A DNA stretch of 64,000 nucleotides from the NCBI RefSeq assembly GCF_002761295.1, contig NZ_CP017881.1, positions 1,289,069 through 1,353,068 of the forward strand, written 5' to 3'. The notes under the pieces were generated by a model, which was not told the origin of the DNA, ran no database searches, and saw nothing but the letters and a program-made list of their open reading frames with translations. Positions 1-64,000 of this stretch are shown here, piece by piece. Source of the stretch: Methanohalophilus portucalensis. GTDB taxonomy: Archaea > Halobacteriota > Methanosarcinia > Methanosarcinales > Methanosarcinaceae. Within the stretch, counting starts at the first letter, position 1. Every line of letters begins with the position of its first letter. The position numbers and the translations under genes were made by a program.

Positions 1-17
1 ATGGAGGATTTGAAAAT

Positions 18-281
18 ATGTTATATATGGATGTTAGTACATGGGAACCTACTCTCAGTGACAAGGTAATTGAACACTTCAAGGAACTAAAACCACCTGC
101 AGGTATCAATATAATAAAACAGTGGGTTGACCTTACAGGAGGACGTTATTTCATCCTCTACGAATGTGATGATGCAGAAGCCTATGCGGCTTTCAACCTT
201 CCATGGTCTGATATCTGCGAAATAGACAGTGTTCCTGTTATGGAATCAACTGATTTCATAAAACTAATGTCAAAGCAATAA
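18..281 (+). CDS. DUF3303-like small conserved protein
   Basis: An 87-residue cytoplasmic protein with no signal peptide or membrane segment. The opening with a Trp-Glu-Pro motif, the central Gly-Gly-Arg followed by a beta-strand pattern, and the LPWSDIC motif near residue 62 resemble the DUF3303 (alpha/beta dimeric barrel-like) family common in methanogens; that assignment is from memory of the family. The start at 18 has a GGAGG Shine-Dalgarno at 3-7 with 10 bases of spacing. Function is unknown. It ends in TAA and faces the next gene convergently, 14 bases away. Confidence 0.75.
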   Translation: MLYMDVSTWEPTLSDKVIEHFKELKPPAGINIIKQWVDLTGGRYFILYECDDAEAYAAFNLPWSDICEIDSVPVMESTDFIKLMSKQ

Positions 282-295
282 TTTATAAGGGAAGT

Positions 296-928
296 TTAAT
301 CTTCCCCTATAAGTTCTACTTCTTTTTTATCATTGCCGATTTCGATCTCAACGACTCCGGGGCGAAATGGGGTTGTATCATAAGTATAACGAATATTACC
401 TTCAGGATCGGCTTGAATGACCTGTGAGGCTTTTACGTCCATCTGGACCGTTTCTGTATTTTCCTGAGCATCCCCACTGATGTTTATATTGAAGGTACCG
501 GAAGGCACATTTGTGTCTATGTATGTGGCCACTGACTCTTCAGCATCCCTGTGTTGTCGGAAAGGCATCAACATTTTAACGGTAAATGTCATGTTCTTAA
601 CAGGCCTTGTTTGGACTTTAAATTCATTCGGTCCTTCTGGAATTTGGACTTTCCGGAAATCATGACTGTACCTGCCATCATTCACCTCAACTGCCACATT
701 GAATCTCACTATCATGTTTATGCGGGCGTCGGGCTTCGTATTGCCCGTTATTGTGATATTTTCACCGGGTTTGAGCTGCTTGTGTGATACGTCCCACTCA
801 ATATCGGAGTCCTTTGTGTCTGGCTTTTCTTCTATAGGTTTCAATATAGAGCTTATTATTTTGTAAAATCCCAAAAATATGTTGTATCCTGTTGTTGAAA
901 TGGAAAATCCCCCTTGTTCTATAAACAT
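296..928 (-). CDS. Hypothetical membrane-anchored surface protein
   Basis: A 210-residue protein. Residues about 13-29 form one weak hydrophobic stretch that could be a signal anchor, followed by a charged linker (EEKPDTKDSD). The rest is rich in alternating beta-strand pattern, with GENITITG at about 54-61, suggesting a beta-sandwich domain outside the cell. I do not recognise a named family. The ATG at 928 has no clear Shine-Dalgarno, so the start is less certain than the body. It is transcribed away from the ribbon-helix-helix gene that begins about 100 bases upstream. Confidence 0.6.
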   Translation of the reverse strand: MFIEQGGFSISTTGYNIFLGFYKIISSILKPIEEKPDTKDSDIEWDVSHKQLKPGENITITGNTKPDARINMIVRFNVAVEVNDGRYSHDFRKVQIPEGPNEFKVQTRPVKNMTFTVKMLMPFRQHRDAEESVATYIDTNVPSGTFNINISGDAQENTETVQMDVKASQVIQADPEGNIRYTYDTTPFRPGVVEIEIGNDKKEVELIGED

Positions 929-1023
929 AATTGAACGTATGCCAATTTATTTTCTTAGGCCCGTTTTCAACGAGTTGTTTATATGTATTATCAGTTATTA
1001 TCTTATATAAAATTCACAGGAGA

Positions 1024-1203
1024 GTGAGATTTATACCCAAGGTTAGTGTGGATATCCCCCAGCAGTTGCTGGATGATCTTAATTGTCACGTAGGGGAGGA
1101 TAGGAAATTCGTGAGCCAGTCGGATGCTATCCGGACTGCAATACGTAAATTACTGGACAGGATGGATGATGTGGATACAAGGCATGGAAGAGTTAAAGAA
1201 TAA
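1024..1203 (+). CDS. Ribbon-helix-helix (CopG/NikR-like) DNA-binding protein
   Basis: A short protein of about 60 residues. It opens with the beta strand PKVSVDIP, followed by two helices ending in SQSDAIRTAIRKLL, the classic ribbon-helix-helix fold of archaeal transcriptional regulators that act as dimers. The open frame extends upstream to 931, but that part is hydrophobic and unlike the family. The first in-frame conventional start close to the domain is GTG at 1024, only 1 base after an AGGAG at 1018-1022. That Shine-Dalgarno is better spaced (10 bases) for the ATA codon at 1033, directly before the conserved Pro-Lys-Val. The 3' end overlaps the convergent downstream gene by 11 bases. Confidence 0.65.
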   Translation: MRFIPKVSVDIPQQLLDDLNCHVGEDRKFVSQSDAIRTAIRKLLDRMDDVDTRHGRVKE

Positions 1204-1981
1204 GATTTGATTTTAAATAATCCATACATTCTGTACCATTTTCCAGATTTTTCATTTCTGTAATGAACAACCCTTCATAACCGTCAACCCTGTCAAATAC
1301 TTTTTTCCAGTCAATACAGCCCTTGCCAAGGGGGAGGTGCTCATCCCTTTTTTCATGGTTGTCATGTATATGGGAATGGACCATTACTTCTCTACAGGAA
1401 TCCAGAAATTCATCAAGCAAGCCCATTGTATTGGCATGGCCGATATCCAGCGTCATGCCTATATTATCTGTATCTACCTTTTCTATTATTTCCAGTATTT
1501 CAGCAGGATATTTTCCAAATATATGGGGCATATCTGGCATATTCTCCAGTGCAATAATAATTCCTTTATCCTCTGCAATCGTGCTTATCTCTTTCAGTGA
1601 TCCTATCGTATTATCCCAGGCTTTTTCGGGATATAATGCTCCTTCAGGGGAGAGATAACCAGGATGGATTACTGCAATTTCAGCAAGACCTGATGCCATG
1701 TGCAGGCAATGTCCCATCTGCCTTACAATTTCTTTATGTATGCCGGGATTGAGGGTTGCAAGGTTTATGTCAGAAAATGGCAGGTGTATTGTGAAGGTCA
1801 GGTTAGTTGTATCCTTTATCTGTTGTACCCTGTCAATATTTTCAGCAGTAATTTTCTGTTTTCCTTCCTGTACAAGTTCGATTGCTGAATATCCCATCTC
1901 TTCCAGTTCATAAGCCCATTCAAGTGGCTTTTCTCCGCTTGCTCTTGCAGAAAAACCGATTGCTGGTGACAACTTACTCAC
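1193..1981 (-). CDS. Sugar phosphate isomerase/epimerase-like TIM barrel protein
   Basis: 262 residues resembling the xylose isomerase-like/AP endonuclease 2 TIM-barrel superfamily. Visible metal-site motifs are HLPFSD (about 66-71), AVIHPGY (about 102-108), ALENMP (about 144-149) and LDIGHANTMG (about 178-187), followed by HIHDNH (about 203-208). These place conserved His, Glu and Asp residues at barrel strand ends. The substrate cannot be told; members act on sugars or on abasic DNA, and the motifs fit the isomerase branch better. The start is GTG at 1981, overlapping the stop of the upstream UPF0201 gene by 8 bases, so translational coupling is likely. Confidence 0.75.
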   Translation of the reverse strand: MSKLSPAIGFSARASGEKPLEWAYELEEMGYSAIELVQEGKQKITAENIDRVQQIKDTTNLTFTIHLPFSDINLATLNPGIHKEIVRQMGHCLHMASGLAEIAVIHPGYLSPEGALYPEKAWDNTIGSLKEISTIAEDKGIIIALENMPDMPHIFGKYPAEILEIIEKVDTDNIGMTLDIGHANTMGLLDEFLDSCREVMVHSHIHDNHEKRDEHLPLGKGCIDWKKVFDRVDGYEGLFITEMKNLENGTECMDYLKSNLIL

Positions 1982-2408
1982 CTTCTCTTAAGGGGGGCAT
2001 TTCCTTTTCATAAACAGGTTTTCCTTCTTCTGTGGGAGGGGCTAACCAGTTAATTATATATTCCAGTTCCCCTTCATTACATTTAATTTCCACATGGATC
2101 GACCCGAGCTCTTCTTCTCCTGCAGGAAAACTGATGCGTCCTACAAAAGCAACCTGTTTATTGAGCATGAAACTCATTTTTTCTTCCGGGCTTTGTATTC
2201 CCTTTTCTAGAACGGACCTTGCGGTGTCGAGAATTTCTTCATCCCGCAGCAGGTGGTGGAATATTTGCAGGTCACGATGGTTGCAATCTATAACTGCAAT
2301 ATTATCATCTAAACGGGGTGTAAGACCACTAATTCTTGTGAGTGCCCCACAGACCTTTGAGGCATCCTCTGTTGGATTTACAGGGGCCCATAACTTAACG
2401 CTGGCCAT
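1974..2408 (-). CDS. UPF0201-type RNA-binding-fold protein
   Basis: 144 residues. The opening VKLWAPVNPTED, the central DCNHRDLQIFHHLLRDEEILDTAR, and a C-terminal strand-rich half match my memory of the archaeal UPF0201 (RNA-binding, DUF54-like) family. Family knowledge: the fold resembles small RNA-binding domains, but the biological role is unknown. It starts at ATG 2408, inside the last 14 bases of the upstream UPF0200 gene. As I recall, the two are fused into one protein in Archaeoglobus, which supports a joint function. It is part of a minus-strand operon UPF0200-UPF0201-isomerase. Confidence 0.75.
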   Translation of the reverse strand: MASVKLWAPVNPTEDASKVCGALTRISGLTPRLDDNIAVIDCNHRDLQIFHHLLRDEEILDTARSVLEKGIQSPEEKMSFMLNKQVAFVGRISFPAGEEELGSIHVEIKCNEGELEYIINWLAPPTEEGKPVYEKEMPPLREGE

Positions 2409-2946
2409 TTATCTTTTCCACCGTGTCTTTTACGTGTTGTCTGAACTCCTTGAGACTTGCAGTGTTGTCAATGGTTACATCGGCAGTTTCCATTGCCTGG
2501 CCCATTCCCCATTTCATTTCCCTTTCATCCCTGATTTTCAAATCTTCGATTTTTTGCATGTCATCGCTTCTGCATCTTTTACGCACACGTTTAAACCGGT
2601 TTTCAATAGGGCTGCTTATAGCTATTAATGAAAATTCATTTCCAAATTCTTTCTTGAAAGTTTCCACCTCTGCAATCCCGCGGACGCCATCTATCACAAC
2701 AACATCGTTATCTTTCTGTTTGATTTTCGGGATACATCTCCTGGCAACGGCATCCATGCCTTCTTTGTCCCTCAGGTCATTGGCTACCGTTCCAGTGTTG
2801 CTGTCTGTTGGATCGAGCTGGCGGTGCTTGACCTCTTCCCGGATCACATCTCCCATATTGATTACGTTAAGTCCCATATTTCGGATCACTTTTGAGGCTT
2901 CGGATTTCCCGGAGGCGGGCATTCCTACAAAGGCTATTATTTTCAT
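2395..2946 (-). CDS. UPF0200 family P-loop kinase-like NTPase
   Basis: 183 residues. The Walker A motif GMPASGKS lies at residues 7-14, right after the first strand, and the VVIDGVRG segment near 83-90 looks like a Walker B/lid region of adenylate-kinase-like or dephospho-CoA-kinase-like NTPases. Family knowledge: archaeal UPF0200 proteins are often labelled as dephospho-CoA kinase-like, but their substrate is not established. Start ATG 2946 has a strong GGAGAGGAG upstream on the minus strand. It is first gene of the overlapping UPF0200-UPF0201-isomerase operon. Confidence 0.8.
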   Translation of the reverse strand: MKIIAFVGMPASGKSEASKVIRNMGLNVINMGDVIREEVKHRQLDPTDSNTGTVANDLRDKEGMDAVARRCIPKIKQKDNDVVVIDGVRGIAEVETFKKEFGNEFSLIAISSPIENRFKRVRKRCRSDDMQKIEDLKIRDEREMKWGMGQAMETADVTIDNTASLKEFRQHVKDTVEKINGQR

Positions 2947-2984
2947 GAGTTGCTTCTCCTCTCCTGCCTTATGATATGTTATTA

Positions 2985-2993
2985 TTTATATAT
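2985..2993 (+). promoter_or_regulatory. TATA box of the dus gene
   Basis: TTTATATAT sits about 26 bases before the chosen dus start at 3015, the normal archaeal TATA-to-start distance. This implies a transcript that is leaderless or nearly so. Confidence 0.5.
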
Positions 2994-3014
2994 CGTTATC
3001 CCATAGGACATATC

Positions 3015-3968
3015 ATGCAAATCGGAAAGGTAAGGCTTGGAGGAAACCTTTTACTTGCTCCAATGGCAGAGGTTACCAATCTTGCCTACCGGGTAGTTTG
3101 CAGGCGCAGAGGTGCATCTTTTGCTTTTACCGAGATGATAAATTCCGAGGCGATATTGCACGACAATGCAAAATCACATCATATGGCGTTAAGTTGTCCG
3201 GATGAGGGTATATTTGGTGTCCAGATATTTGGAAGATCCCCGGTTTCTATGGCAAAAGCTGCCTGCCTGATTGAAAATGAAACATCACCTTCAATTATTG
3301 ATATAAATGCGGGCTGCCCGTCTCCCCGAATCCGGAAAACGGGTGCGGGCTCAAAGCTTATGGAAAAACCCGATGTACTGGAAAATATTATACAGTGTGT
3401 GGTGGAATCAGTAAATGTGCCGGTAACTGTAAAGATACGAGTATTCAGGGATGTGTCACAGACTGTAGAACTCGCATCAAGGCTTGAAAATGCCGGTGCC
3501 TCAGCCATAACAGTCCATGGAAGGACTGCCATGCAACAATATTCAGGTGTGGCGGATCATTTGTACGCTCGCAGGATCAAAGAGGAGTTATCAATTCCTG
3601 TTATTGCAAACGGGGATATAAGGCACGGTGTTTTTGCTGCCCGGGTTCTTGAATATACGGGATGTGACGGTCTTATGATAGGGCGGGCAGCCATGGGGGA
3701 TCCTGATATCTTCTCAAGGATAGCGGCATTTCTTGAAAGCGGCATTAAGTTTCCTCCTGCCGATTGTGATCAGCGAAAAAGCAGTCTGGAGGAATATCTG
3801 AAACTACTGGAAGCCTATGGTTTGGACAAAAAAGTAAATCTGGCAGCACATTCTGCGTGGTTTACCAGGGGTCTTGCAGGTTCCAGATCTTTTCGCAAAT
3901 CCATCCAGAACGTAAAGAGTAGTGAGGGTATTATTTCTAGGATGGAAATGCTATGCAGGGAGGCTTAA
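3015..3968 (+). CDS. dus: tRNA-dihydrouridine synthase
   Basis: 317 residues. An FMN-dependent TIM-barrel enzyme that reduces uridine to dihydrouridine in tRNA D-loops. Visible family landmarks are LLAPMAEVTN near the N-terminus (flavin-binding strand), the DINAGCPSP motif with the catalytic cysteine, VKIRVF, TVHGRTAMQQYSG, PVIANGDI and GLMIGRAAMGDP near residue 225. The open frame runs 13 codons further upstream, but ATG 3015 is preferred because the flavin strand begins directly after it and AGGA precedes it. It is a single gene between the divergent UPF0200 operon and the por operon. Confidence 0.9.
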   Translation: MQIGKVRLGGNLLLAPMAEVTNLAYRVVCRRRGASFAFTEMINSEAILHDNAKSHHMALSCPDEGIFGVQIFGRSPVSMAKAACLIENETSPSIIDINAGCPSPRIRKTGAGSKLMEKPDVLENIIQCVVESVNVPVTVKIRVFRDVSQTVELASRLENAGASAITVHGRTAMQQYSGVADHLYARRIKEELSIPVIANGDIRHGVFAARVLEYTGCDGLMIGRAAMGDPDIFSRIAAFLESGIKFPPADCDQRKSSLEEYLKLLEAYGLDKKVNLAAHSAWFTRGLAGSRSFRKSIQNVKSSEGIISRMEMLCREA

Positions 3969-4070
3969 TTGTTTTTTTGGGTTCTTTAAAATAAATTTCT
4001 GTCATTTGTTGTCACCGAAAAACTAAATAGGAATTAGCTATTCTACACAATTAAACATTGCATTTATTCC

Positions 4071-4092
4071 AATTACCATCCAAACGGTAATT
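4071..4092 (+). promoter_or_regulatory. Inverted repeat in the por leader
   Basis: AATTACC and GGTAATT form a perfect 7-bp dyad with an 8-base spacer, 71 bases before porC. The 3969-4162 intergenic region carries the por promoter; an A/T-rich TATA-like stretch lies near 4022-4029, so the dyad is in the transcribed leader or close to it. It could be an operator or an RNA hairpin. Confidence 0.35.
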
Positions 4093-4162
4093 GTTGATGC
4101 ATGCGGGTTCGTATCCGCTATCTACAATTATATGTCCATTACGTTTGTTACGGAGAATACAG

Positions 4163-4708
4163 ATGAAAGAAATAAGAATACATGGTCGAGGCGGACAGGG
4201 TTCGGTAACAGCAGCCGAACTACTGGCAGGCGCCGCTTTTGAGGATGGCCAGTTTAGCCAGGCATTCCCGGCCTTTGGTGTAGAAAGACGTGGAGCACCG
4301 GTTCAGGCTTTCACAAGGATCAGTGATGCCCCAATCAGGCTCAGAAGCCAGATTTATGAACCAGATTACGTAATTGTTCAGGATCCCACACTTATTGAGG
4401 TGGTGGATGTTGAAAGCGGGGCAAAGGATGATGGTATCATACTTATTAATTCTGATTTTGCTCCGGAAGATTTTGATCTTGACACAAATGCCCGTATAAT
4501 GACCGTGAATGCAACAAAGGTAGCTCTTGATATCATTGGAAGGCCTATTGTCAATACTGTTCTTTTAGGAGCCTTTGCCGGTGCAACGGGTGAGGTCAGG
4601 GCCAGTTCCATTGTCAATGCGGTAAAGGGGCGTTTCTCAGGTAAGATCGGAGAGAAAAATGCAGAGGCTGTACAGAAAGCCTATGACTTGATGGCGGAGG
4701 AAAAATAA
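4163..4708 (+). CDS. porC: Pyruvate:ferredoxin oxidoreductase, gamma subunit
   Basis: 181 residues. Gamma subunit of the four-subunit pyruvate synthase/oxidoreductase, which interconverts pyruvate and acetyl-CoA plus CO2 with ferredoxin. The [17 protein letters not shown] opening and the [17 protein letters not shown] motif are typical. ATG 4163 is chosen over the in-frame ATG at 4091: it has CGGAG at 4151-4155 and starts right at the conserved domain. It overlaps porD by one base (TAATG). The four genes follow the order gamma, delta, alpha, beta, as in other methanogens. Confidence 0.93.
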
Positions 4709-4968
4709 TGAGCATACAACTCGGAGGAGTATGTCAACCCGGTACCACGAGGGCAAACAAGACCGGTGGCTGGAGAACTTTCAGGCCTGTCTATGACTAC
4801 GATAAATGCATCAAATGTAAATTATGTGAATTGCTCTGTCCTGATATGGCAGTATTACCCAGGGACGACGGATTCTTTGAATTTGATTATGATTACTGTA
4901 AAGGATGCGGAATCTGTGCCAATGAATGTCCCAAGGAAGCCATTGATATGGTACTGGAGGAGAAATAA
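4708..4968 (+). CDS. porD: Pyruvate:ferredoxin oxidoreductase, delta subunit (2[4Fe-4S])
   Basis: 86 residues. The electron-transfer subunit, a ferredoxin-like protein with two clusters bound by CIKCKLCELLCP and CKGCGICANECP. These pass electrons from the thiamine site to external ferredoxin. The N-terminal segment with GWRTFRPVYDYDKC is typical of PorD. It is tightly packed between porC (one-base overlap) and porA (starts right after the stop). Confidence 0.95.
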   Translation: MSIQLGGVCQPGTTRANKTGGWRTFRPVYDYDKCIKCKLCELLCPDMAVLPRDDGFFEFDYDYCKGCGICANECPKEAIDMVLEEK

Positions 4969-6183
4969 ATGACAGTTATACGTACCCTTGACAAGGATAA
5001 GATGGATGTGGCCGAAGGTTCCTATGCAGTGGCCCATGCTGTGAAGGTATGCAGGCCAAATGTTATTTCCGCATATCCTATCACACCACAGACCCATATT
5101 GTGGAGGATCTTTCCCAGTTTATGGCTGATGGTGAGATTTCCAACTGTGAATATATAAACGTGGAATCCGAGTTCTCCGCCCTTTCGGCCCTTGTAGGAT
5201 CTGCAGCAGCAGGTGCCAGGTGTTATTCGGCCACCACCTCGCAGGGTCTGGAACTGATGCATGAGGTGCTTTTCAATGTATCAGGAATGCGCCTGCCGGT
5301 TGTAATGACCATCGCAAACCGCGCGGTAAGTGCTCCTATTAATATCTGGAACGATCACCAGGATTCAATTTCCCAGCGTGATACCGGCTGGATCCAGATG
5401 TATGCCGAGGATCTGCAGGAAATCTCGGATATGACTGCCCAGGCTTACAAGGTTGCAGAAGATAAGGATGTAATGATGCCTGCAATGACCTGTATGGACG
5501 GTTTCATCCTGTCTCATGTCTATGAGCCGGTGGTCTTGCTGGAACAGGACCTTGTGGATGAATATCTGCCTGCTTATGAACCGGAATACTCACTCGATCC
5601 TAAAAACCCGCTTACATTCGGTGCCTTTGCAGACCCGACTGCCTATACTGAATTCAGATATCTGCAGCAGAAGGCAATGGATAATGCCCTGCCCAAGATT
5701 GAAGAAGCTGCCAATGAGTTCTATGAAATATTTGGAAGGTATTATGGTGGCCTGATCGATGAATACGAGACAGATGATGCTGATATAATCCTCATGGCTA
5801 TGGGTTCACTTGTGGGTACCATCAGGGATGTAGTGGATAAACTCCGTGCAAAGGGAGTAAAGGTCGGTTTGCTTAAAGTAAGGACTTTCAGGCCATTCCC
5901 GGCAGAAGCAATAAAGAATGTTATCAAGGATGCAAAGGTTGTTGTCGCACTTGACAAGAATATCTCCCTGGGACTCAATGAAGGGTCCCTGTTTACCGAG
6001 ACCAAGGCAAGTCTGTATAATACTAAGGTTGATGTCCCGATAGTGGGTCGGATGATCGGACACGGTGGTCGTGACATACCCGTAAAAACCATTGAGGATA
6101 TAGTGGAGGAAGCTAAAGGCATAATCTCTTCGGGTATCAATACTGAGAGCAAATATGCTGATCTGAAGGAGGAATTGTTGTGA
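4969..6183 (+). CDS. porA: Pyruvate:ferredoxin oxidoreductase, alpha subunit
   Basis: 404 residues. Alpha subunit with the pyruvate-binding [11 protein letters not shown] motif near residue 35 and the [10 protein letters not shown] region near 93; the C-terminal third (from about 260) carries the transketolase C-like domain with [12 protein letters not shown]. It forms the catalytic core with PorB. ATG 4969 follows the porD stop directly. It ends in TGA, overlapping the porB GTG start by four bases. Confidence 0.94.
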
Positions 6184-7058: not shown

Positions 7059-7082
7059 GCCTGAATCTTATTCTCTTTTTCT

Positions 7083-7739: not shown

Positions 7740-7774
7740 ATACTACCTCATACAACATCTTGTAGGGGGATTGA

Positions 7775-8173: not shown

Positions 8174-8277
8174 AATAGGCTCACTGTTTAACCATTCATA
8201 TTAATAATTCTTTTTTTACAATAACTTTTTATAATGAATTATGCTTTATTCTGTCTGTTACTTTGGATGGAATATGC

Positions 8278-10676: not shown

Positions 10677-11102
10677 TTATGTAAAGCCCGAAATATCCTC
10701 GACAACGTCATCGCTATCACTTGTTAATGTAAAAGTAGCAGCAATTCTAAAATGAGCCTCGGTACCAACTGTAAGTGAACGATTTCCAGACTTAATACAA
10801 TAATTCCATTCTGGTGGAAGGAGTTCAGAATACATCTTTGGAGTATTGTTTGATTCCAAAGTTTGTCTGCTTACTTTGATACTTTCACCTGCTTCGAGAT
10901 TAAAGGTTTTGCCTATATGTATAGTGCCATCGGATTTTACAATCTAAAAAGTAGCACTGTGTGGATATTCATCCTCATTAACTATCGTAAAAATTGGTTC
11001 ACTTGGTCCAGCAAGCAACCATGGTATCGCATATAGTACTGCAAATATCAGCACTGCTATTGATGCTATCAGAACAATTCGACTTCTCTGTTTATCTGTC
11101 AT
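10677..11102 (-). CDS. Membrane-anchored small protein with in-frame TAG codon
   Basis: A 141-codon frame from ATG 11102 to TAA at 10677, interrupted once by TAG at codon 53 (10946-10944). Residues about 7-30 are a signal anchor (RIVLIASIAVLIFAVLYAI). The rest is a compact beta-rich domain: EPIFTIVNEDEYPHSATF before the TAG, then IVKSDGTIHIGKTFNLEAGE after it, and a normal ending in DDVVEDISGFT. The frame is unbroken on both sides with even composition. If UAG is read as pyrrolysine this is one intact gene; otherwise it is a recent nonsense mutant (CAG or AAG to TAG is one step). It lies just downstream of a 27-codon ORF with a near-identical N-terminus. Confidence 0.6.
10944..10946 (-). other. 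In-frame TAG codon (codon 53)
   Basis: Minus-strand TAG, in the same frame as the ATG at 11102 and the TAA at 10677. The flanking codons are TTT before and ATT after. It is a candidate pyrrolysine or suppressed amber site. Confidence 0.6.
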
Positions 11103-11351: not shown

Positions 11352-12632
11352 TTATGACATTTCCCCATATTCAGGTTTTTCAATTTTACCCATAAAAAGA
11401 ATACAGCCCGTTCTCTTATCTTCGATAAAGAACATGAATGGATGATCTGCCTTGAAATCGAATACCTCTCCTGGAGGCTTACTGTAAGCCATATCCTCTG
11501 CAGTTGCTGCTGCCGCCTCTGTGCCAGTTTCATTCACTTCAATGAATGTCTGATGAACAACATCATCTATTTTTAATGAGTACCCACGTGGCATTTTTTG
11601 GCTATCAAAGATTCCAGAGAAGTCAGCATTTTCTACATCAAAAGCATCAACAACTCCCATTTCAATTAATGGATCTGATAGTTTGGTTTTTGTTTCAAAT
11701 GTATACTTTGGTAACCAGATTCGTACATCCTGTCCTGGTTCCATGGTAGATTTGAGTTCATTATAATCAGAGAGAGTAAATTTATTTTCAAAATCTTCAA
11801 TGTTGTTTTTTTCAGGAAGAACAATGTACATGCTTAAATCTCTGCCTTTGTATGGAAGTTCGACGACTTTTGCATCTTTGTTTTCGCCATAACTGAAATA
11901 CTTCCATACATACATCATATCTACAAGAGTTCCTTCTTCGCTTGAAGATGAATTATAGAAGGGTTCTTTTTGCGTATCATCCACATCAAATTCAATGAGC
12001 CAGTTTCCTTTAAAGTAAAGTGTGTTTGTAATGATCATGTCTGTCCATTCAGGATTAATCATGTCATCTGAAATCAAATCCCTGATTTTACCATTGGTCT
12101 TTGTGGCGATCCATTCATTGATGATCTCTTGGGATTCTTCAGGTTCATTTCTAAAATCTACATTTGTTATTTTTCCACCATAGTAGGTTTCTGAGTTGTT
12201 TACAAACTTCTTATTCAGTGGATAATCATTCCGCACCCAGAGAGCATTTGCAGTTTCAAGACTATAATAGTCGCTATTAGAGTTGATCGTATCTACCATC
12301 TCTTTTGAACTCTCTTCAAGAACGGATTTGTTGAGAGGATAGTAACACGCATCTGACAACTGTTCTTTTGTGGAACCTTCAGCACCATCGTAGCAAATGG
12401 CCATTGTAGTGAAGATGCTATATGGTGAAAAAAAGATATTTTCATCTCCATTCTTAATCAGTGAATACATATCAAAAGCAAAAGCATTGTTTGCAGTTGA
12501 AATATCATAACCATTGACTGAATCTGTATTGATCGTGGTCTTTGTATTTACAGTTGAATCTTCAACACAACCTAGAAAAATCGATGAAATCATACATAAT
12601 GACACTAATATTGTAATTTTCAGTTTTTTCAT
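11352..12632 (-). CDS. Serpin, lipoprotein-anchored protease inhibitor
   Basis: 426 residues. Signal peptide with lipobox FLGC (Cys22), then a full-length serpin fold: NIFFSPYSIFTTMAICYDGA, the NTLYFKGNWLIEFD motif, a hinge TGTEAAAATA, and the C-terminal DHPFMFFIEDKRTGCILFMG. The alanine-rich hinge is that of inhibitory serpins; counting from it puts the scissile bond near MAYSKPP, roughly at Tyr-Ser-Lys. Serpins trap serine or cysteine proteases as suicide substrates. They are uncommon in archaea. ATG 12632 is chosen over the open frame to 12707 because the signal peptide begins there. Confidence 0.93.
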   Translation of the reverse strand: MKKLKITILVSLCMISSIFLGCVEDSTVNTKTTINTDSVNGYDISTANNAFAFDMYSLIKNGDENIFFSPYSIFTTMAICYDGAEGSTKEQLSDACYYPLNKSVLEESSKEMVDTINSNSDYYSLETANALWVRNDYPLNKKFVNNSETYYGGKITNVDFRNEPEESQEIINEWIATKTNGKIRDLISDDMINPEWTDMIITNTLYFKGNWLIEFDVDDTQKEPFYNSSSSEEGTLVDMMYVWKYFSYGENKDAKVVELPYKGRDLSMYIVLPEKNNIEDFENKFTLSDYNELKSTMEPGQDVRIWLPKYTFETKTKLSDPLIEMGVVDAFDVENADFSGIFDSQKMPRGYSLKIDDVVHQTFIEVNETGTEAAAATAEDMAYSKPPGEVFDFKADHPFMFFIEDKRTGCILFMGKIEKPEYGEMS

Positions 12633-12679
12633 AATATTTAGTAAATGTTTGTAGTATAAAGTTTTTATGATTTTCGCAC

Positions 12680-12765
12680 CGAACAAAAAAATATAGTTAT
12701 CGGACAAAACTGTGAATTATAGGGCACAATCCTGAATATTCGGACAAATCGATTTGAAGGACAAA
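12680..12765. repeat. Array of CGGACAAA-like repeats between serpin and dinB
   Basis: CGAACAAA at 12680, CGGACAAA at 12701, a weaker GGGCACAA at 12722, CGGACAAA at 12741 and AGGACAAA at 12758. Steps are 21, 21, 19 and 17 bases, about two helical turns, so the copies face roughly the same side of the DNA. They lie between the divergent serpin and dinB genes and look like an operator array. Confidence 0.45.
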
Positions 12766-12814: not shown

Positions 12815-13906
12815 ATGTCACGTATTGTTGTCCATGTGGACATGGACTACTTTTATGCTGCTGTTGAGGAGCGTGAAAACCCTTCCCTTATAGGCAGGCC
12901 TGTAGTGGTCTGCATGTATTCGGGTAGAGGGGAGCACGGGGGCTCGGTAAGCACCTCCAATTATACAGCCCGCGAATATGGTATTAAATCAGGTATGCCC
13001 TGTTCCAGAGCCATTAAACTGAATCCGGATGCGGTTTTTCTTCCTGTAAGAAAAGAGTTTTACACTGAAGTTTCTGACAGTATCATGGAAGTACTGCGCT
13101 TACATGCAGATAGTGATGAATCTTTTGAGCAGATAAGTATAGATGAGGCATTCATCGAAGTTACGGCAAACTGTAACGGTGATTTTGAATGTGCCCTTAA
13201 ATTGGGTGAAGATATTAAGCAAAAGATTCTGGAAAAAGAACAGCTTACATGTTCTGTGGGGATTGGGCCCAACAAACTCATTGCCAAAATGGCATCCTCA
13301 GAAAATAAACCCGATGGGCTTACTGTCATATCACAAAATGATGTAAACTCATTTCTGGAAGATCGGACTGCCTCTCAACTCTGGGGTGTAGGGGATGTCA
13401 CAGCCGCCAGGCTTGAAAAAATGGGCATAAAATCAGTGGGGCAACTTGCTTCTTCGGACATTGTGTCTCTCATAGATGCTTTTGGTAAAAAGAAAGGTTC
13501 ATGGCTCAAAAAGGCTGCATAGGGGATTGATGAGTCTCCTGTCAGGCAAAGGGAAGGAAGTGAGCAAATTGGCAGGATAGCCACTTTGCCGGAAAATTCA
13601 TCGGATCACGATTTGATAATGCCAGTTCTGGATAACCTTGCCGATGATGTGATTAAAAAGACCATCAAAAGAGGTGTTTCCTTCCGTCAGGTTACACTGA
13701 TTGTAATCACATCTGATTTCAAAACCCAAACTCGTAACCATACCCTCCAGAGAGCGGTTGCTGAAAAAGAAATTCTGAGGTCAAATCTGGATAAATTGCT
13801 AACAACCTTCCTTGAGGAAAACAAATTGGCCATTCGCCGGATTGGAGTTAGGGTTGCCGGGTTACAGGAAGTTTCATCTCAGACAACACTTGCTTCTTAC
13901 TTTTGA
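12815..13906 (+). CDS. dinB: DNA polymerase IV (Y-family, DinB) with in-frame TAG
   Basis: A 363-codon frame with one TAG at codon 236 (13520-13522). Residues 1-235 hold the palm, fingers and thumb: catalytic Asp9 (HVDMDYFYA, Tyr14 as the likely steric gate) and Asp110-Glu111 (SIDEAF). After the TAG the same frame continues with GIDESPVRQREGSEQIGR, the linker and little-finger domain, and ends in QTTLASYF, a PCNA-interacting (PIP) motif. No frameshift is needed. The usual residues at this position in the family are Asn, Arg or Gln. Read through, the enzyme is complete; stopped, it would lack the DNA-gripping domain and the PCNA contact. A TATA-like stretch near 12784-12792 suggests leaderless transcription. 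Confidence 0.85.
13520..13522 (+). other. In-frame TAG codon in dinB (codon 236)
   Basis: GCA-TAG-GGG in the dinB frame, at the junction between the thumb and little-finger linker. The frame upstream and downstream is the same, and both halves are conserved DinB sequence. Confidence 0.85.
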
Positions 13907-54161: not shown

Positions 54162-54178
54162 TTATATACCCCGATAAC

Positions 54179-56956: not shown

Positions 56957-57052
56957 ATAGCCTCTTCAATGCGAATAGAAGGAGTTTTTCTTTTCATTAT
57001 ATGTATTAATGTTATATATGTATTGTATTATTAAAATACTGTCGTGTAATAC

Positions 57053-57847: not shown

Positions 57848-59191
57848 TTATTCACGTATCATGGACTGGATTTCTGAACTGACTGTGGGGAACACATAAA
57901 CCACTCTCTTGAACTGGGAAAGCGTCAGTCCAAGTCTCATTGCCATTGCAAAGAGATTAATCACTTCTTCTGAATGGGATCCCAGTATGTGGGCGCCTGC
58001 AATTTTTTGGCTTTCTTTTTCGATGATGACCTTTGAGGCTGCATAGTTTTCCGACAGGCGCCTGCTGTTATACCAATGGCTGCGATCATGGATCAGGACT
58101 TCATACTTTTCAGTAGATTCGGACAGGCTAACACCTACACTTGAGAGAGGAGGAAGGGTAAATACTGTGGAAGGAATTCCGGTATAATCCACTGTCTTGA
58201 CATTTCCTTTTATTATATTGTCTGCTGCAGTAGTTCCCTGCAAACTTGCAACAGGGGTTAAAGGAGCTCCCGGCTTTACACAATCGCCGGCTGCATATAC
58301 GTAAGGATTGGAGACACTTTGCATGTACTCATTTGTCTCCACGAATCCATCTTTAGTTTCAACATTACCTCTTTCAAGTTCCATTCCTTCAAGGGCTGCA
58401 ACCCTGCCGGAACCGTTGACTACCAGGTCACATTCAATCCGCGAGTCTTTGCCCTCACTATCCCTGGTATTCACAGTATATCCTGCTGAAGTACTTTCAA
58501 CAGAGCTGACAGAGATACCTGTATTGACATTTATGCCGGCTTCCTGGGAAGCTTTTACCAGCAATTTGACCATGTCCCTGTCAAAGTGTTTGAGTACTTC
58601 ACTTCTTTGTAAGATAGTTACCTGGCTTCCCGTACGTGCAGCGATATGGGCAAATTCAAACGAAATATATCCACCGCCCACAAAAACAATTCTACTGGGC
58701 AATTCATCGAGATTGAGAAATTGCTCACTTGTAATCAGATTTTCTTTGCCTTTAATTCCGATTTTTCGGGGCACTGAGCCGGGTGCAATCAGGATGTGTT
58801 TGCCCTTAAGGACTGTATCTGCTATCTTGACTTCATTTTGGGAAACAAACTTTGCCCCACCATGATAGGTTTCAATATCCATATTTTTGAACTTTTCTTC
58901 CTTGTCAGCGGGGAAATTTTCCACAAATGTTTGCTTAAATTCCATTAACTTGCTCCAGTCTACGGAAGATTGTGGCATGATCCCCAGCTTGTTGAAACGA
59001 TTAACCTGTTCAACGGTTTCTGCAACACCCACAAGTACTTTTTTTGGCACACATCCCCGAAGTGCACATGTCCCGCCATATTCTCTGATATCTGTAATTG
59101 CGATCTTCATTCCTGCCGCAGCTGCCTTTTTCGCACAAACGGTACCTGCTACACCTGTCCCAATGATGATAATATCATATTCTCTGGCCAT
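57848..59191 (-). CDS. FAD-dependent disulfide reductase-like protein
   Basis: 447 residues. Class I pyridine nucleotide-disulfide oxidoreductase: FAD-binding DIIIIGTGVAGTVCAKKA, redox-active pair in GGTCALRGCVPKK (about 40-52), NAD(P) site RIVFVGGGYISFEFAH, and AAGDC. The family's C-terminal active-site His-Pro-Thr is Phe-Pro-Thr here (VYVFPTVSSEI), so the catalytic base is missing. It is not a classical lipoamide or glutathione reductase; the substrate is unknown. ATG 59191 has GAGGG nine bases upstream and is preferred over the TTG at 59200. Confidence 0.85.
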   Translation of the reverse strand: MAREYDIIIIGTGVAGTVCAKKAAAAGMKIAITDIREYGGTCALRGCVPKKVLVGVAETVEQVNRFNKLGIMPQSSVDWSKLMEFKQTFVENFPADKEEKFKNMDIETYHGGAKFVSQNEVKIADTVLKGKHILIAPGSVPRKIGIKGKENLITSEQFLNLDELPSRIVFVGGGYISFEFAHIAARTGSQVTILQRSEVLKHFDRDMVKLLVKASQEAGINVNTGISVSSVESTSAGYTVNTRDSEGKDSRIECDLVVNGSGRVAALEGMELERGNVETKDGFVETNEYMQSVSNPYVYAAGDCVKPGAPLTPVASLQGTTAADNIIKGNVKTVDYTGIPSTVFTLPPLSSVGVSLSESTEKYEVLIHDRSHWYNSRRLSENYAASKVIIEKESQKIAGAHILGSHSEEVINLFAMAMRLGLTLSQFKRVVYVFPTVSSEIQSMIRE

Positions 59192-59253
59192 TTCCTTCAA
59201 CCCTCAGGGGAAAATTAGGTAGTTGGAAGATAAATGGCTATCGCAAATATAGT

Positions 59254-60723
59254 TCAAAAATCGAAAAGAGTCTTCTGGGATTTGGCAGGCTTTGGATTAT
59301 CCTTTTCCTTTCCTTCCGTTTGATTTTCTTTTGCAAGGTCTTTTTCTGCTGAAAACATGGAATCAAGGGTTGACTGTCCCCTGTCTTTTTCAGGAGCATG
59401 CATGAATACGTCGATATCTTCATCTTCCTTTTCATGCATCATTTCCCGGGAAGCATCATAGATTTTCTGGATTTTCTTTGTTACCCTTTTGCTTTCTGTC
59501 AGGTAAGCAATCTCATCTACATCGAGTTCAAGAGAATATGCTGCATCAACTGCATAGTCCTCGTTTTTGAGTAAAAGGCCGTACATCCGAAGCAGGTCTA
59601 TACGGCAATCCCTGATTGGTTCATTGCAGTGCAAGCCCACTTTTGCAGCTATGTTATCCCTCATGTTTCGTTTGGAGCGCAGTTGGCCCATACGTCTCCA
59701 CATTGAAGGGGGCTGTAACTTGCGGAAACCGGAATGTGAGTGCTTCTTTGCCATTGCCGTTCCTCCGCTTAAAAGGAAGCCGGCATATCTCCAGAGTCCA
59801 TAGTTCTGCCGCAATCGCACCCTGCCAAGATATATATCAGCTCTTGAAAGGTTATGATAGGCGGTAGTTAGATCTTCACTTAGTGTTTCATCCTTGTCCA
59901 GATACTGGTTGGGGAGGTTCTCGTCTACCCACTGAATAAGGTCTTCAGGTGTTTCGTCCAGGGAAAAGGTTGCCCTGTAGGCTTCAACAGGATCTCTGCC
60001 CTTGAAAACGTTGGTAAGTACTTTGAAAATAGATTCTTTTGTATCCCTTTCGGCTGTGGTTACATCCACAACTTCTATCTCTTTTTTATCTGTTGCTGTT
60101 GCCTGCAAATCTTTTATGGCACTTCTGAGATCACCGCCTGTATTTTCAGCGATTTTCTCCAGCACGCCTGTGCCACATATTATCCCTTCCATTTTGCATA
60201 TCTTTTTCAGTGCAGGCAGAACGGAGCGCTGGGGGATGGAATTGAATTTTATGTTCACACAATGAGAACGCAGAGTTGATGAGAGGGCATACAGGTCATT
60301 GGCAATGAGTATAATAGGTTGATTGGATTTCTTGATCACATTCGTAATGGCGCGGGTCCCTCCCCTGTCGGCCGAGCCATGCATATTATCTGCTTCATCC
60401 AGTATTATGAGGCGTTTTTGTATCCCTGTAAGTGTACTCATACGGGAAGCAGAACCAGCCACCTTCTCGATGATGCCGGCAGTCCGCTGGTCACTGGCAT
60501 TCATCTCTATAATTTCCCAGCCCATCTCCTTTCCCAGTGCATGGGCAGCGGATGTCTTTCCAACACCGGCAGGTCCACTCAATATGGCTGCTTTTTTTTC
60601 AGGAACTCCGTGCTCCCATTCTTCTTCCCAGTCACGTAGGGCCTGCAGGGGTTTATTGTTCCCCACAACATCTGCCAGTTTGGTAGGACGGTATTTTTCT
60701 GCCCAATCTTGCGCTATTGTCAT
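59254..60723 (-). CDS. rfcL: Replication factor C large subunit
   Basis: 489 residues. Clamp-loader subunit that opens PCNA with RfcS. Walker A GPAGVGKTSAAHALG (about 46-60), Walker B LIILDEADN, and the large-subunit-specific C-terminal domain follow. Near the end QSTLDSMF is PIP-like, and the final QKTLFDF is a good PIP motif. ATG 60723 has GAGGT upstream. It is divergent from the mtx cluster. Confidence 0.95.
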   Translation of the reverse strand: MTIAQDWAEKYRPTKLADVVGNNKPLQALRDWEEEWEHGVPEKKAAILSGPAGVGKTSAAHALGKEMGWEIIEMNASDQRTAGIIEKVAGSASRMSTLTGIQKRLIILDEADNMHGSADRGGTRAITNVIKKSNQPIILIANDLYALSSTLRSHCVNIKFNSIPQRSVLPALKKICKMEGIICGTGVLEKIAENTGGDLRSAIKDLQATATDKKEIEVVDVTTAERDTKESIFKVLTNVFKGRDPVEAYRATFSLDETPEDLIQWVDENLPNQYLDKDETLSEDLTTAYHNLSRADIYLGRVRLRQNYGLWRYAGFLLSGGTAMAKKHSHSGFRKLQPPSMWRRMGQLRSKRNMRDNIAAKVGLHCNEPIRDCRIDLLRMYGLLLKNEDYAVDAAYSLELDVDEIAYLTESKRVTKKIQKIYDASREMMHEKEDEDIDVFMHAPEKDRGQSTLDSMFSAEKDLAKENQTEGKEKDNPKPAKSQKTLFDF

Positions 60724-60811
60724 CTGTGACCTCACCTACATTAAAGCGAAAACTAATTAATAATTGTGTTGTTTGTTGATTGTTAAACTTTGCATATTAA
60801 TGAGGGTGCCC

Positions 60812-61654
60812 ATGCAGAAAAAGACAGATGGATTGCTGGAGATCATACGTACAAGGGCTCTTGATAATTGTCCCCGGGTTGCACTGGGTGTGCGCAATCC
60901 TACTTCCAAACTGATCCAGAGTGCAGAAAAAGCCCAGGTTGAAGGCTATGCCCGGGTGGTTCTTGTAGGCGACCAGCGTGATATATCGGCAATCGGAACA
61001 AACCTTGAAGTGATCGATACTCCACAACCGGAAGAAGTTCTTGGAAGTCTGCTTGCATCCGGGGATGTTGATGCGGCTGTAAGAGGCACGGCAAAAGCCT
61101 CAGGCACCCTGTCTCACCTCAAAGAGGTACTCGGCATTGAGAAATTATACAGGGTTGCTTTCCTGCTAACTCATGACAATAATCCTTTTTTCCTTGCACC
61201 TGTGGGTATTGATGAAGGGCACTCTCTTTCCGATAAAATTGAACTTGTACAAAGAAGTGCTGCCTATATCCGCAGGTTTGGTATTGAACCAGAGGTTGGC
61301 ATCCTTTCCGGAGGACGTATGGGGGACCTTGGACGTGACGAACGTGTGGACCGTACCCTGGCAGATGCGGATTTTCTGGCAAACCGGTTAAACGATGCGG
61401 GAATAGATGCGAAACATTACACGATACTTATAGAGGATGCCATCAGGAAATCTAACTTCATCCTTGCCCCGGATGGCATATCAGGCAATCTTATCTTCCG
61501 TTCACTTGTATTTCTGGGTGGGGGCAATGGAATTGGGGCACCCGTCCTTATGGACAGGCATGTGTTTATTGACACATCCCGGGTGGGCGGCCATTATACC
61601 CTGGCCATAATGCTTGCTGCAGCTCTTGTTTCTAATAAAAGGGAGGTTGTATAA
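60812..61654 (+). CDS. mtxX: Putative methyltransferase subunit MtxX
   Basis: 280 residues. Matches the MtxX / methanogenesis marker 4 family: ALGVRNPTSKLIQSAEKAQV, VRGTAKASGTLSHLKEVLG, GILSGGRMGDLGRDERVDRT and the Gly-rich FLGGGNGIGAPVLMD. The fold recalls phosphotransacetylase-like enzymes; its activity is not established. It leads mtxXAH. ATG 60812 is chosen because GAGGGTG lies just upstream. Confidence 0.9.
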   Translation: MQKKTDGLLEIIRTRALDNCPRVALGVRNPTSKLIQSAEKAQVEGYARVVLVGDQRDISAIGTNLEVIDTPQPEEVLGSLLASGDVDAAVRGTAKASGTLSHLKEVLGIEKLYRVAFLLTHDNNPFFLAPVGIDEGHSLSDKIELVQRSAAYIRRFGIEPEVGILSGGRMGDLGRDERVDRTLADADFLANRLNDAGIDAKHYTILIEDAIRKSNFILAPDGISGNLIFRSLVFLGGGNGIGAPVLMDRHVFIDTSRVGGHYTLAIMLAAALVSNKREVV

Positions 61655-61655
61655 G

Positions 61656-62240
61656 TTGGATACAGTTTCAGAAAAATGGCCTGTTACAAAAGGAGATTTC
61701 AGTGCAGGCAATCCCAAATCCTGTATCGCCGTGGTAACCCTTGCAAGTTCGGTGCCTCTGTTTGAAAAAGCAGCAATCTGGGGTAGTTGCAAAACGGAAA
61801 ACCTGGGGGCTGAGAAAGTTGTAATGAATGTTGTTTCCAACTGCAATATCAGGTACGTACTTCTCTGTGGTGGTGAATCCCGGGGCCATCTTGCAGGCCA
61901 GACCCTGAAAGCCCTTTACGAAAACGGTATTGATGAAGATGGCAGGATCCTGGGTTCAGAGGGGGCGATTCCCTTTATTGAGAACCTGGAGATTGAAACA
62001 ATTCAGCGTTTTCGCCAACAGGTGGAACTTATAGACCGTACCGGGCTTACTGACATTGATGAAATATACTCGATTGTTGACAATTATCATGATTCGGAGA
62101 AACCCTTTGAAGCTTCTCCAATATCCTTTAGAAAAGCTGTCAGGAAATATAAGCCACCTGAATCCATCAGTGCTGATATACTTATCAGTGAAAAAGTGGT
62201 TATGGATGCTTTTTCCGGCTTAATTTACGAGATTGCTTGA
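61656..62240 (+). CDS. mtxA: MtrA-like corrinoid protein MtxA
   Basis: 194 residues. Soluble relative of subunit A of the Na+-translocating methyl-H4MPT:CoM methyltransferase. The cobalamin-ligand region IRYVLLCGGESRGHLAGQTL contains the axial His. It lacks MtrA's C-terminal membrane helix. The likely start is TTG 61656, with GGGAGG upstream, one base after the mtxX stop. It probably carries a methyl group on corrinoid between MtxH and an acceptor. Confidence 0.9.
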   Translation: MDTVSEKWPVTKGDFSAGNPKSCIAVVTLASSVPLFEKAAIWGSCKTENLGAEKVVMNVVSNCNIRYVLLCGGESRGHLAGQTLKALYENGIDEDGRILGSEGAIPFIENLEIETIQRFRQQVELIDRTGLTDIDEIYSIVDNYHDSEKPFEASPISFRKAVRKYKPPESISADILISEKVVMDAFSGLIYEIA

Positions 62241-62249
62241 GGTTTTCAA

Positions 62250-63182
62250 ATGTTCAGGTTCCAAAAAGATCAAAAAATTGCCAATATTGCCGGTGTGAAG
62301 ATAGGCGGTAATCCCGGTGAACTGCCCACAGCCCTTGCAGGTACAATATTCTACGAAGGACATGATATCGTGGAGGATGCGAATGAAGGGTTGTTTGACC
62401 GTAAAATTGCAGAGGATCTGCTCAATTCCCAGCGTGCATCATCTGATGAAACCGGTAATCCATGCCTTGTGCATATATTCGGCAATACAGAACAGGCCCT
62501 CAGCAACTATATTGATTTTGTCAGTGAAATTACGGATTCTCCTTTCCTTATCGATTCCCCCGATCCGCTGGCCCGGATGGCTGCGGCAGAATATGTGAGC
62601 GAGATTGGTCTGGGGGACAGGGCAGTTTATAATTCCATAAATATGACCATCGGTGAAAAGGAGTGCAAGGTGTTAAAAGATTCAGATATAGACAGCTCCA
62701 TAGTTCTGGGGTTTAATGCCATGGATTCAGGTTTCAAAGGCAGGATGCAACTTCTGGAGTCCGGTACTTCTTCAATGGACAAAGGCCTGATAGATATCTC
62801 TCTGGAATGCGGGATGTGCAATATACTGATTGATCCAGGGATAACTCCTATGGGTAATGGTTCCGGGGTCAGTCTGAGGATTACGCTGGCAGCCAAGGCC
62901 AAATGGGGATTGCCGGTAGGTTCGGGAATTCACAATGCTCCTTCTTCCTGGGAATGGCTCAGGGATAAAAAGAAACATGATCCCCTTGTGTTTAAAATGT
63001 GTGATATCGCATCTGCCGTAATGCAGCAGGCAGCGGCCGGAAATTTTGTACTTTACGGCCCCATTGAGAATGCACCCTACATCTTCCCGGTGGCTGCGAT
63101 GTCAGATATCATGATCTATGAATCTGCCGAAGAATTTGAAATAGAACCTGCTTCTTCCCATCCATTTAACAGGTTGGTCTGA
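62250..63182 (+). CDS. mtxH: MtrH-like methyltransferase MtxH
   Basis: 310 residues. Relative of MtrH, the subunit that moves methyl groups from methyl-tetrahydromethanopterin to corrinoid. TIM-barrel features: FQKDQKIANIAGVKIGGNPG at the start, GTIFYEGHDIVEDANEGLFD, FLIDSPDPLARMAA and ILIDPGITPMGNGSGVSLR. It follows mtxA by nine bases. The trio mtxXAH is known from Methanosarcina; its methyl donor and role remain open. Confidence 0.92.
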   Translation: MFRFQKDQKIANIAGVKIGGNPGELPTALAGTIFYEGHDIVEDANEGLFDRKIAEDLLNSQRASSDETGNPCLVHIFGNTEQALSNYIDFVSEITDSPFLIDSPDPLARMAAAEYVSEIGLGDRAVYNSINMTIGEKECKVLKDSDIDSSIVLGFNAMDSGFKGRMQLLESGTSSMDKGLIDISLECGMCNILIDPGITPMGNGSGVSLRITLAAKAKWGLPVGSGIHNAPSSWEWLRDKKKHDPLVFKMCDIASAVMQQAAAGNFVLYGPIENAPYIFPVAAMSDIMIYESAEEFEIEPASSHPFNRLV

Positions 63183-63234
63183 CTATATTGTTTTGTACAT
63201 AAATCAATGGTCTAATACTAATGAAGTGATTCAG

Positions 63235-63804
63235 ATGAGACAATTGAAAATTGACATTCCTGATAACCTCTTTGCTAAACTTGAATTGATGCCGGATAGT
63301 GACAATTTTATACGCAGTTTGCTCGAAGAAGCCCTCGATCCTGAAAATACAATCGATGACCCAGGCTTGATGGCTCAAAAACTCATCTCAATCGAAAACA
63401 GATTGAAATCTATTGAGGATCACATAGCAGGCACTTCCTCGCCAGATCCGGTTCCTCCTTCTCCTGAGCCTGACAATTTATCTCCGGATGAAAAACCTGT
63501 AGTGGCTGCAGATCCTATGCCCGAAGAAGTTGCCGAACAGGAGGATGATCCGTTCTATACTAAAATGAAGAGGATAAAGGACAATGAAAAAGCAAGTTCA
63601 GCAGACGAAGCGCCTTCTCCTCTTAAACAAAGTATACTCCAGTACCTTCCTGATGGCATGATAATTAAAAAGCAAGTCCTTATAAGCCTGCTTTCGGTAC
63701 GCTATCCGAAGGATGAAGTTGAGAAAAATATAGAAGATATGATCGGGGAAGGTACCATCTCCCTTCTGGATAAAGAAGACGGCACCTGCGTTCAACGTAG
63801 CTGA
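63235..63804 (+). CDS. Hypothetical protein with disordered middle and helical ends
   Basis: 189 residues. An N-terminal beta-helix segment (MRQLKIDIPDNLFAKLELM) hints at a ribbon-helix-helix-like fold. The middle (about 75-120) is Pro/Glu-rich and probably disordered. The C-terminal 60 residues look like a winged helix (SILQYLPDGMIIKKQVLISL). Function unknown. It lies 52 bases after mtxH, with ATG 63235 chosen at the start of the strand. Confidence 0.6.
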   Translation: MRQLKIDIPDNLFAKLELMPDSDNFIRSLLEEALDPENTIDDPGLMAQKLISIENRLKSIEDHIAGTSSPDPVPPSPEPDNLSPDEKPVVAADPMPEEVAEQEDDPFYTKMKRIKDNEKASSADEAPSPLKQSILQYLPDGMIIKKQVLISLLSVRYPKDEVEKNIEDMIGEGTISLLDKEDGTCVQRS

Positions 63805-64000
63805 TTATTCCCTGATAGCGCCCTTGTTAGCAGAACTTACGGATTTCCTGTAACGGGCAAGATATCCTTTTACTTCTTTGACAAGGGGTTTGAAATTTTC
63901 TTTCCTCTTCTGCATCTCTTCTTCATCGATAAGAAGCTCCAGTTTTCTTGCAGGGATATCAATCTCTATAATGTCCCCTTCTTCGATAAGGCCAATTGGT
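63805..64000 (-). CDS. ilvD: Dihydroxy-acid dehydratase, C-terminal fragment (cut by window edge)
   Basis: The last 64 codons of a gene that continues beyond the window. IGLIEEGDIIEIDIPARKLE then YLARYRKSVSSANKGAIRE, TAA, is the typical IlvD C-terminus. The enzyme is an Fe-S dehydratase in branched-chain amino acid synthesis. It is convergent with the hypothetical gene at 63235. Confidence 0.9.
   Translation of the reverse strand, partial: PIGLIEEGDIIEIDIPARKLELLIDEEEMQKRKENFKPLVKEVKGYLARYRKSVSSANKGAIRE

Follow-up and report, generated by a model that had tools for sequence, protein, structure and literature searches.

UAG appears to be mainly a sense codon in the methanogen Methanohalophilus portucalensis

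We analysed a stretch of 64,000 nucleotides of the Methanohalophilus portucalensis genome (RefSeq assembly GCF_002761295.1, contig NZ_CP017881.1, positions 1,289,069 to 1,353,068), here called the window, in which gene ends and internal TAG triplets bear on whether UAG is read as a stop or as pyrrolysine (Pyl). The features that matter to the argument are given below in window coordinates.

1..64000, whole window: 59 called genes; one TAG end, internal to dinB
12815..13906, + strand: dinB-like DNA polymerase IV gene, 363 residues with TAG as a residue; the TAG is its only internal stop
13520..13522, + strand: in-frame TAG at dinB codon 236, probably read as Pyl; homologs span the site
10677..11102, - strand: open reading frame of 141 residues with one in-frame TAG at codon 53 (10944-10946), open when TAG is read; probable second frame with an internal TAG

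Genes of the window were called by a hexamer model that had been trained on parts of the same genome, which gave 33 TAA, 25 TGA and 1 TAG ends (n=59) and bears out the 37 TAA, 28 TGA and 0 TAG (n=65) of a preliminary description made from the letters of the window. The sole TAG among the 59 ends is internal to dinB, with homologs and Pfam domains continuing beyond it, and the window is without any gene shown to be TAG-terminated. At a TAG rate of 20%, zero in 58 genes would have a probability of 2e-6; at a rate of 1.25%, zero in 65 has a probability of about 0.44, and the window is typical of its own genome (11/790, see below). The preliminary description had also reported two good frames with an internal TAG. 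One of them, dinB, is confirmed; the other, probably the minus-strand frame at 10677-11102, found no homolog support in the sampled sequence of relatives, and neither did a second small frame obtained by calling TAG as sense (L021:17185-17445).

Beyond its TAG, the dinB frame extends for 127 residues. The Pfam domains of the product are IMS (residues 8-161), a thumb domain (189-239) that spans the TAG, and IMS_C (250-356). Codon 236 is covered by 34 homologous stretches, some genomes being represented twice, and is a variable site, with Q in 13, S in 5, A in 4, R in 3 and other residues besides; the six nearest stretches among those listed are open there and carry Q (CAG). A distant dinB homolog of another Pyl-positive genus (G015:C69, L345) has an internal TAG of its own at a different codon, a pattern that fits repeated arrival of TAG in this gene.

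For the genome-wide count of TAG ends called for in the preliminary description, we sampled 864 kb (41% of 2,084,875 bp), in which the hexamer caller found 790 genes with 402 TAA, 377 TGA and 11 TAG ends by the standard code. Three of these stretches were aimed at pylB, mttB and the release factor gene aRF1, and the remainder were spaced by coordinate; among the relatives, many stretches were aimed at pylB and some at dinB or a CheF-like gene. Because stretches were placed on such targets, pylB and mttB are over-represented among the TAG rows, and the TAG count is raised. Homology or domains place eight of the 11 TAGs inside proteins (MttB, two MtbB, DinB, the CheF-like protein, a PAS-GAF kinase, a URO-D protein and CofC), one is terminal (pylB), and two, in genes for an Mrr-like and a lipoprotein-like protein, were assigned to neither class. 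Two further internal TAGs, in a glycosyltransferase gene (GT2) and in mfnA, had not been called as ends. TAG is practically absent as a terminator in this sample, the exception being pylB; of the several conserved TAG-terminated genes that would have spoken against recoding, this is the single one shown.

A census across genomes, in which one simple caller was run on sampled stretches and standard TAG ends were counted, places these figures in context. The genome of M. portucalensis has 5/396 TAG ends under this caller, and six other Methanohalophilus have 1/104, 3/100, 2/71, 3/79, 1/53 and 3/68. Six other Pyl-positive genera have 1/41, 3/37, 1/47, 5/54, 1/62 and 3/32 (pooled 14/273), and five relatives classed as Pyl-less, in that they have no PylB match above cut-off, have 17/71, 6/38, 10/53, 10/43 and 11/50 (pooled 54/255, or 21%). 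TAG makes up 16-29% of intergenic stop triplets across the census genomes and 20% in M. portucalensis; the difference in TAG ends is thus not accounted for by base composition. Within subsets of these genomes, homologs of aRF1 and dinB end at TAG in 0/16 and 0/18 Pyl-positive cases and in 4/14 and 3/11 Pyl-less ones. Since the window is unremarkable against the rate of its own genome, TAG depletion is a property of the whole genome and of the genus rather than of the window.

Six of the 13 TAG ends found in the other six Methanohalophilus belong to pylB, two are tandem TAG-TGA ends and one is MttB; the others were not settled by homologs, although an MFS-like frame plainly runs on past its TAG. 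A tandem TAG-TGA, a backed-up stop, ends a conserved gene in genomes matching M. mahii and M. euhalobius (L136:13831-14238 and L183:60-467).

The machinery for pyrrolysine, for which the preliminary description had proposed a search, is encoded in full by a pylTSBCD operon about 71 kb before the window; two of its features are located as follows.

L025:12250-12321: tRNA-Pyl, anticodon CTA (ARAGORN), directly upstream of pylS
G000:C1:1214878-1215918 (L025:9878-10918), - strand: pylB; TAG end, then one base, then the ATG of pylC

PylS, PylB, PylC and PylD score 692.9, 513, 454.5 and 352.2 bits with their NCBIfam models, all in excess of the cut-offs; together with the tRNA-Pyl(CUA) gene, every component sought is present, including pylS and pylT, whose absence would have counted against recoding. 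A first test for pylC with PF21360 (PylC-like N-terminal) gave no match and was replaced by the specific NCBIfam models, with which the gene was found. One TAG each is carried by MttB, by two MtbB and by two of three MtmB matches. For MttB, tandem mass spectrometry of strain FDF1 identified Pyl at residue 334 in a tryptic peptide, according to passages of the published report (PMC4928046).

The third MtmB homolog (G000:C1:546785-548131, L207) has no TAG at all; parts of a recent report describe activity on tetramethylammonium and choline for a non-Pyl MtmB homolog of Methanococcoides (PMC13044021). The MtmB matches at G000:C1:747601-748431 and 1672832-1673650 span only the last 60% of the family. 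Stretches L017 and L020 hold 100 N each, and the match at 747601 starts within L020; these may be mtmB repeats at scaffold gaps of the published assembly.

The proposal in the preliminary description that TAG serves as a sense (pyrrolysine) codon beyond the methylamine methyltransferases gains support from seven other genes in the 864-kb sample, in which an internal TAG is backed by homologs or domains: those for DinB, GT2, the PAS-GAF kinase, the URO-D protein, the CheF-like protein, CofC and MfnA. MfnA acts in methanofuran synthesis. The only mfnA match in the genome bears TAG at codon 41, and with this TAG taken as a residue the product scores 524.6 bits across the full TIGR03812 model. Of the eight Methanohalophilus genomes, six share the TAG and the two that diverge more have Ala; at this site the homologs examined from other genera carry Val, Ile, Leu or Ala. 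Five of the six TAG-bearing copies are otherwise intact. The ratio of nonsynonymous to synonymous substitution rates (dN/dS) is 0.118 for codons 2-40, a value based on 39 codons only, and 0.114 for codons 42-378 (0.118 and 0.110 when the draft genome G004 is excluded). With similarly low values on either side of the TAG, the upstream part, few as its codons are, would thus be constrained with the rest as part of the same protein. As far as sequence can tell, MfnA is the strongest single argument for UAG read-through in a gene unrelated to methylamines.

The remaining genes differ in how closely their TAGs are bracketed. In the PAS-GAF kinase, a PAS_3 domain (34-120) spans TAG codon 85, at a variable site; in GT2, the glycosyltransferase domain spans TAG codon 29, likewise variable. 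The variable sites of dinB, GT2 and the PAS-GAF kinase are as expected for TAGs that would have arrived neutrally. The URO-D domain (7-337) spans TAG codon 290, where homologs mostly have Trp (11/14), and the CheF-like gene has an open ortholog in M. halophilus that is 83% identical. The CofC TAG (codon 210) was considered as a true gene end and rejected: two orthologs, one from the M. mahii match and one from the genome matching M. euhalobius, have GAG at the site and a TGA four codons on.

A control for pseudogenes was sought in a scan for interrupted genes, in which 531 TAA, 411 TGA and 162 TAG positions were compared with 1,621 kb of sequence from relatives. The raw scan, with 178 positions under a spanning alignment (82 TAA, 73 TGA, 23 TAG), was unusable: antisense and out-of-frame shadows dominated it, and the stop was often present in the relative as well. 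The scan was then restricted to homologs open at the site. Under a clean-lesion rule (at least 130 residues, at least 85% covered by one alignment, exactly one stop, and an open homolog in the sampled sequence of relatives), five TAG genes pass in the 864 kb, namely dinB, the CheF-like gene, and those for the URO-D protein, MfnA and GT2. For TAA two rows pass, the end of aRF1 itself and L031:12649, which is antisense to two adjacent genes, and for TGA no row passes in the same 864 kb. The PAS-GAF kinase misses the coverage rule, its best homolog being a longer protein, and MttB and MtbB fall outside the rule because their homologs carry TAG too.

Set against these internal triplets is the end of pylB. 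Of 22 Pyl-positive genomes, 17 have a TAG at this end, at the homologous C-terminus, and in 15 of the 17 an ATG, which in M. portucalensis is the PylC start, lies one base 3' of it. Among the best 80 of 255 pylB loci, TAG ends number 28/59 for Methanosarcinales-type loci and 3/21 for others, and by genus 11/11 in Methanosarcina, 4/4 in Methanohalophilus, 5/6 in Methanococcoides and 0/13 in Methanolobus; the 22-genome and 80-locus sets overlap in some genomes, and shared ancestry keeps the counts from being independent. The Methanolobus stop is TGA, and the TAG end is hence not universal. A 2010 review notes it, in the part available, for M. mazei, M. acetivorans and M. burtonii (PMC2933860). 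The tail that read-through would add is 44% identical between two species, versus 69% for PylC on the same DNA, and varies between genera from 12 to 42 codons.

The genome has one aRF1 above cut-off. Human eRF1 G57 is listed, in sections of a published study, among the class-specific sites of stop recognition (PMC4698671). Its equivalent in aRF1 (L091; residue 45 of the matched stretch, next to NIKS, with the numbering inferred through the 1dt9 alignment row) is Ser in 8/8 Methanohalophilus and Gly in the other 22 aligned sequences. The aRF1 of structure 4af1, from a haloarchaeon with ordinary stops, also has Ser at this site. A reading of the Gly-to-Ser change as loss of UAG recognition is weakened by this, and the change alone need not abolish recognition.

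We consider it highly probable that UAG is read as pyrrolysine genome-wide in M. portucalensis, and not just in methylamine methyltransferases; TAG appears to be mainly a sense codon here. In the mechanism that we propose, PylB, PylC and PylD would make pyrrolysine, and PylS would charge tRNA-Pyl(CUA) with it. Pyl insertion requires no fixed mRNA motif, as stated in parts of an earlier publication (PMC9499178), and with no special signal needed any in-frame UAG would be a candidate sense codon. Because read-through of a terminal UAG would add a tail, selection would have removed UAG from nearly every gene end in favour of UAA or UGA, and because an internal UAG would be tolerated, UAGs could have drifted into ordinary genes, the mfnA UAG being now in six Methanohalophilus genomes; pylB would be the one conserved gene found still ending at UAG. 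Directly observed are the machinery, the depletion of terminal TAG, UAGs inside genes that are otherwise intact, and selection both before and after the UAG of MfnA; from these we infer the insertion of Pyl at UAGs other than that of MttB, and its efficiency.

Several observations weigh against this reading. Foremost is the pylB TAG itself: since it is kept in 17 of 22 Pyl-positive genomes, either UAG retains at least a partial function as a stop, or a PylB tail of 39 residues is tolerated. The aRF1 keeps the GT(E/S), NIKS and YxCxxxF motifs, and passages of the 2010 review report that one M. acetivorans release factor reads all three stops and that a UAG introduced there gave 20-30% read-through (PMC2933860). 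The Mrr-like and lipoprotein-like TAG ends are undecided, the former having a weak PH-like domain 3' of its TAG that falls below cut-off. No other dinB ortholog among the 40 genomes searched has TAG at codon 236, and the GT2 and CheF-like TAGs are absent from every ortholog found elsewhere, with no GT2 ortholog closer than 61%; any single gene among dinB, GT2 and the CheF-like gene could be decaying, as a young pseudogene. In the draft genome G004, which matches M. profundi, dinB lies in two out-of-frame pieces (L219 / L052) and mfnA has an additional frameshift near codon 55-60, which reflect either real decay or sequencing error. The shortness of the mfnA stretch before the TAG belongs to the same side.

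Among the alternatives, complete reassignment survives best. It holds that aRF1 is blind to UAG, that UAG is an unambiguous Pyl codon and that PylB is always made with its 39-residue tail. A genome in which one of 790 called genes is shown to end at TAG would look this way, and so would the Ser found in the aRF1 of all eight Methanohalophilus and in none of the 22 others; against it stand the same Ser in 4af1 and a pylB tail whose poor conservation and varying length are unlike those of a real part of a protein. We regard complete reassignment as rather doubtful. The preliminary description had left the choice between wider read-through and full reassignment: wider reading is supported, and full reassignment is not shown, given the pylB end and the main motifs kept in aRF1.

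Avoidance of TAG without general recoding is improbable in our judgement. UAG would then be a leaky, rare stop, read efficiently in the methylamine methyltransferases alone, and the other internal UAGs would mark pseudogenes. TAG avoidance in archaea with Pyl has been published (in the portion of the article covered, PMC4153887), and the 20-30% of full-length product from the UAG introduced into M. acetivorans (PMC2933860), the broken dinB of another species, the frameshift in one of six mfnA copies and the pylB end all agree with it. Random nonsense, however, would be expected to strike as TAA and TGA equally, and the genes with a clean single lesion are five, all TAG, which counts against the pseudogene reading; so does an mfnA TAG present in six genomes, five of them with otherwise intact copies, under purifying selection on both sides and in the sole mfnA match here. 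Of depletion without reassignment, the main alternative offered in the preliminary description, the purging of TAG from gene ends therefore stands, and the internal TAGs are left unexplained by it. That the window is without TAG ends by luck or through gene calling, conceivable with some 60 genes (an earlier estimate was 3.6% at a 5% rate), can be dismissed, as 790 genes over 41% of the genome behave alike and Pyl-less relatives differ strongly under the same caller.

Reading of UAG as pyrrolysine in M. portucalensis belongs to a kind of system that is already known, to which this work adds a list of genes, a conserved site in MfnA and a single remaining terminator, that of pylB. Archaea that consistently read TAG as Pyl are reportedly described by Kivenson and colleagues (Science, 2025); that claim would be of the same kind, and Methanohalophilus may be one of the lineages covered. 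Like Pyl decoding elsewhere in the Methanosarcinaceae, the system here has the full pylTSBCD set, tRNA-Pyl(CUA) and TAG in MttB, two MtbB and two MtmB; unlike it, seven further genes in 864 kb have a supported internal TAG, and one gene in 790 has a shown terminal one. For 'Ca. Methanomethylophilus alvus', parts of a published analysis give 1.6% TAG stops and 16 further putative Pyl proteins (PMC4153887). That organism resembles M. portucalensis in the near loss of terminal TAG and in its many putative Pyl proteins; it differs in belonging to another order and in the genes concerned, whereas here the MfnA site recurs in six genomes and selection was measured on both sides. According to passages of an earlier paper (PMC3017947), the M. 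mahii gene for citrate synthase, likewise unrelated to methylamines, has an amber (Pyl) codon. Its TAG is present in the genome matching M. mahii (G007), whereas the copy in M. portucalensis is TAG-free. In four Methanohalophilus genomes (G001, G003, G004 and G006; L261-L264) citrate synthase is represented by short 3' pieces. Within the part of the literature covered, we found no prior account of the gene list, of the MfnA site with selection on both sides, of the aRF1 change or of the breadth of the pylB TAG end.

If TAG is a sense codon, standard annotation splits ordinary proteins such as MfnA, and proteome searches that take TAG as a stop miss them. Since the species can be cultured, its genome and Pyl proteomics have been published and its mfnA TAG is conserved, the completeness of codon reassignment becomes directly measurable.

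Codon-based feedback also becomes testable through the lone UAG that ends pylB, the first gene in Pyl synthesis. A change from TAG to TAA takes one substitution, yet the pylB TAG was kept while nearly all other TAG ends vanished, which suggests that it has a use. We offer, as a speculation to which we give a low chance, that this UAG is a sensor of charged tRNA-Pyl that would throttle pyrrolysine synthesis through its own codon. With Pyl-tRNA scarce, ribosomes would terminate at the pylB UAG and could restart on pylC; with Pyl-tRNA plentiful, read-through into the tail would reduce translation of pylC and yield a poorer PylB. No prior statement of this idea was found in the part of the literature covered.

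Calling genes with TAG as sense was, taken alone, too loose. Six of the 14 rows so obtained in M. portucalensis were dropped as artefacts, the TAG lying upstream of the likely true start; their positions are given below.

L013:15047: TAG before likely start
L018:6288: TAG before likely start
L021:13957: TAG before likely start
L025:4799: TAG before likely start
L027:12794: TAG before likely start
L030:13954: TAG before likely start

Two further observations concern other genes. In the genome matching M. profundi, a UDP-glucose dehydrogenase-like gene (L140:8499-9791) has an internal TAG at codon 49, within the NAD-binding domain. In the window, the open reading frame at 11352-12707 on the minus strand bears a likeness, judged by eye, to a serpin-type protease inhibitor, a putative assignment that would be unusual in a methanogen.

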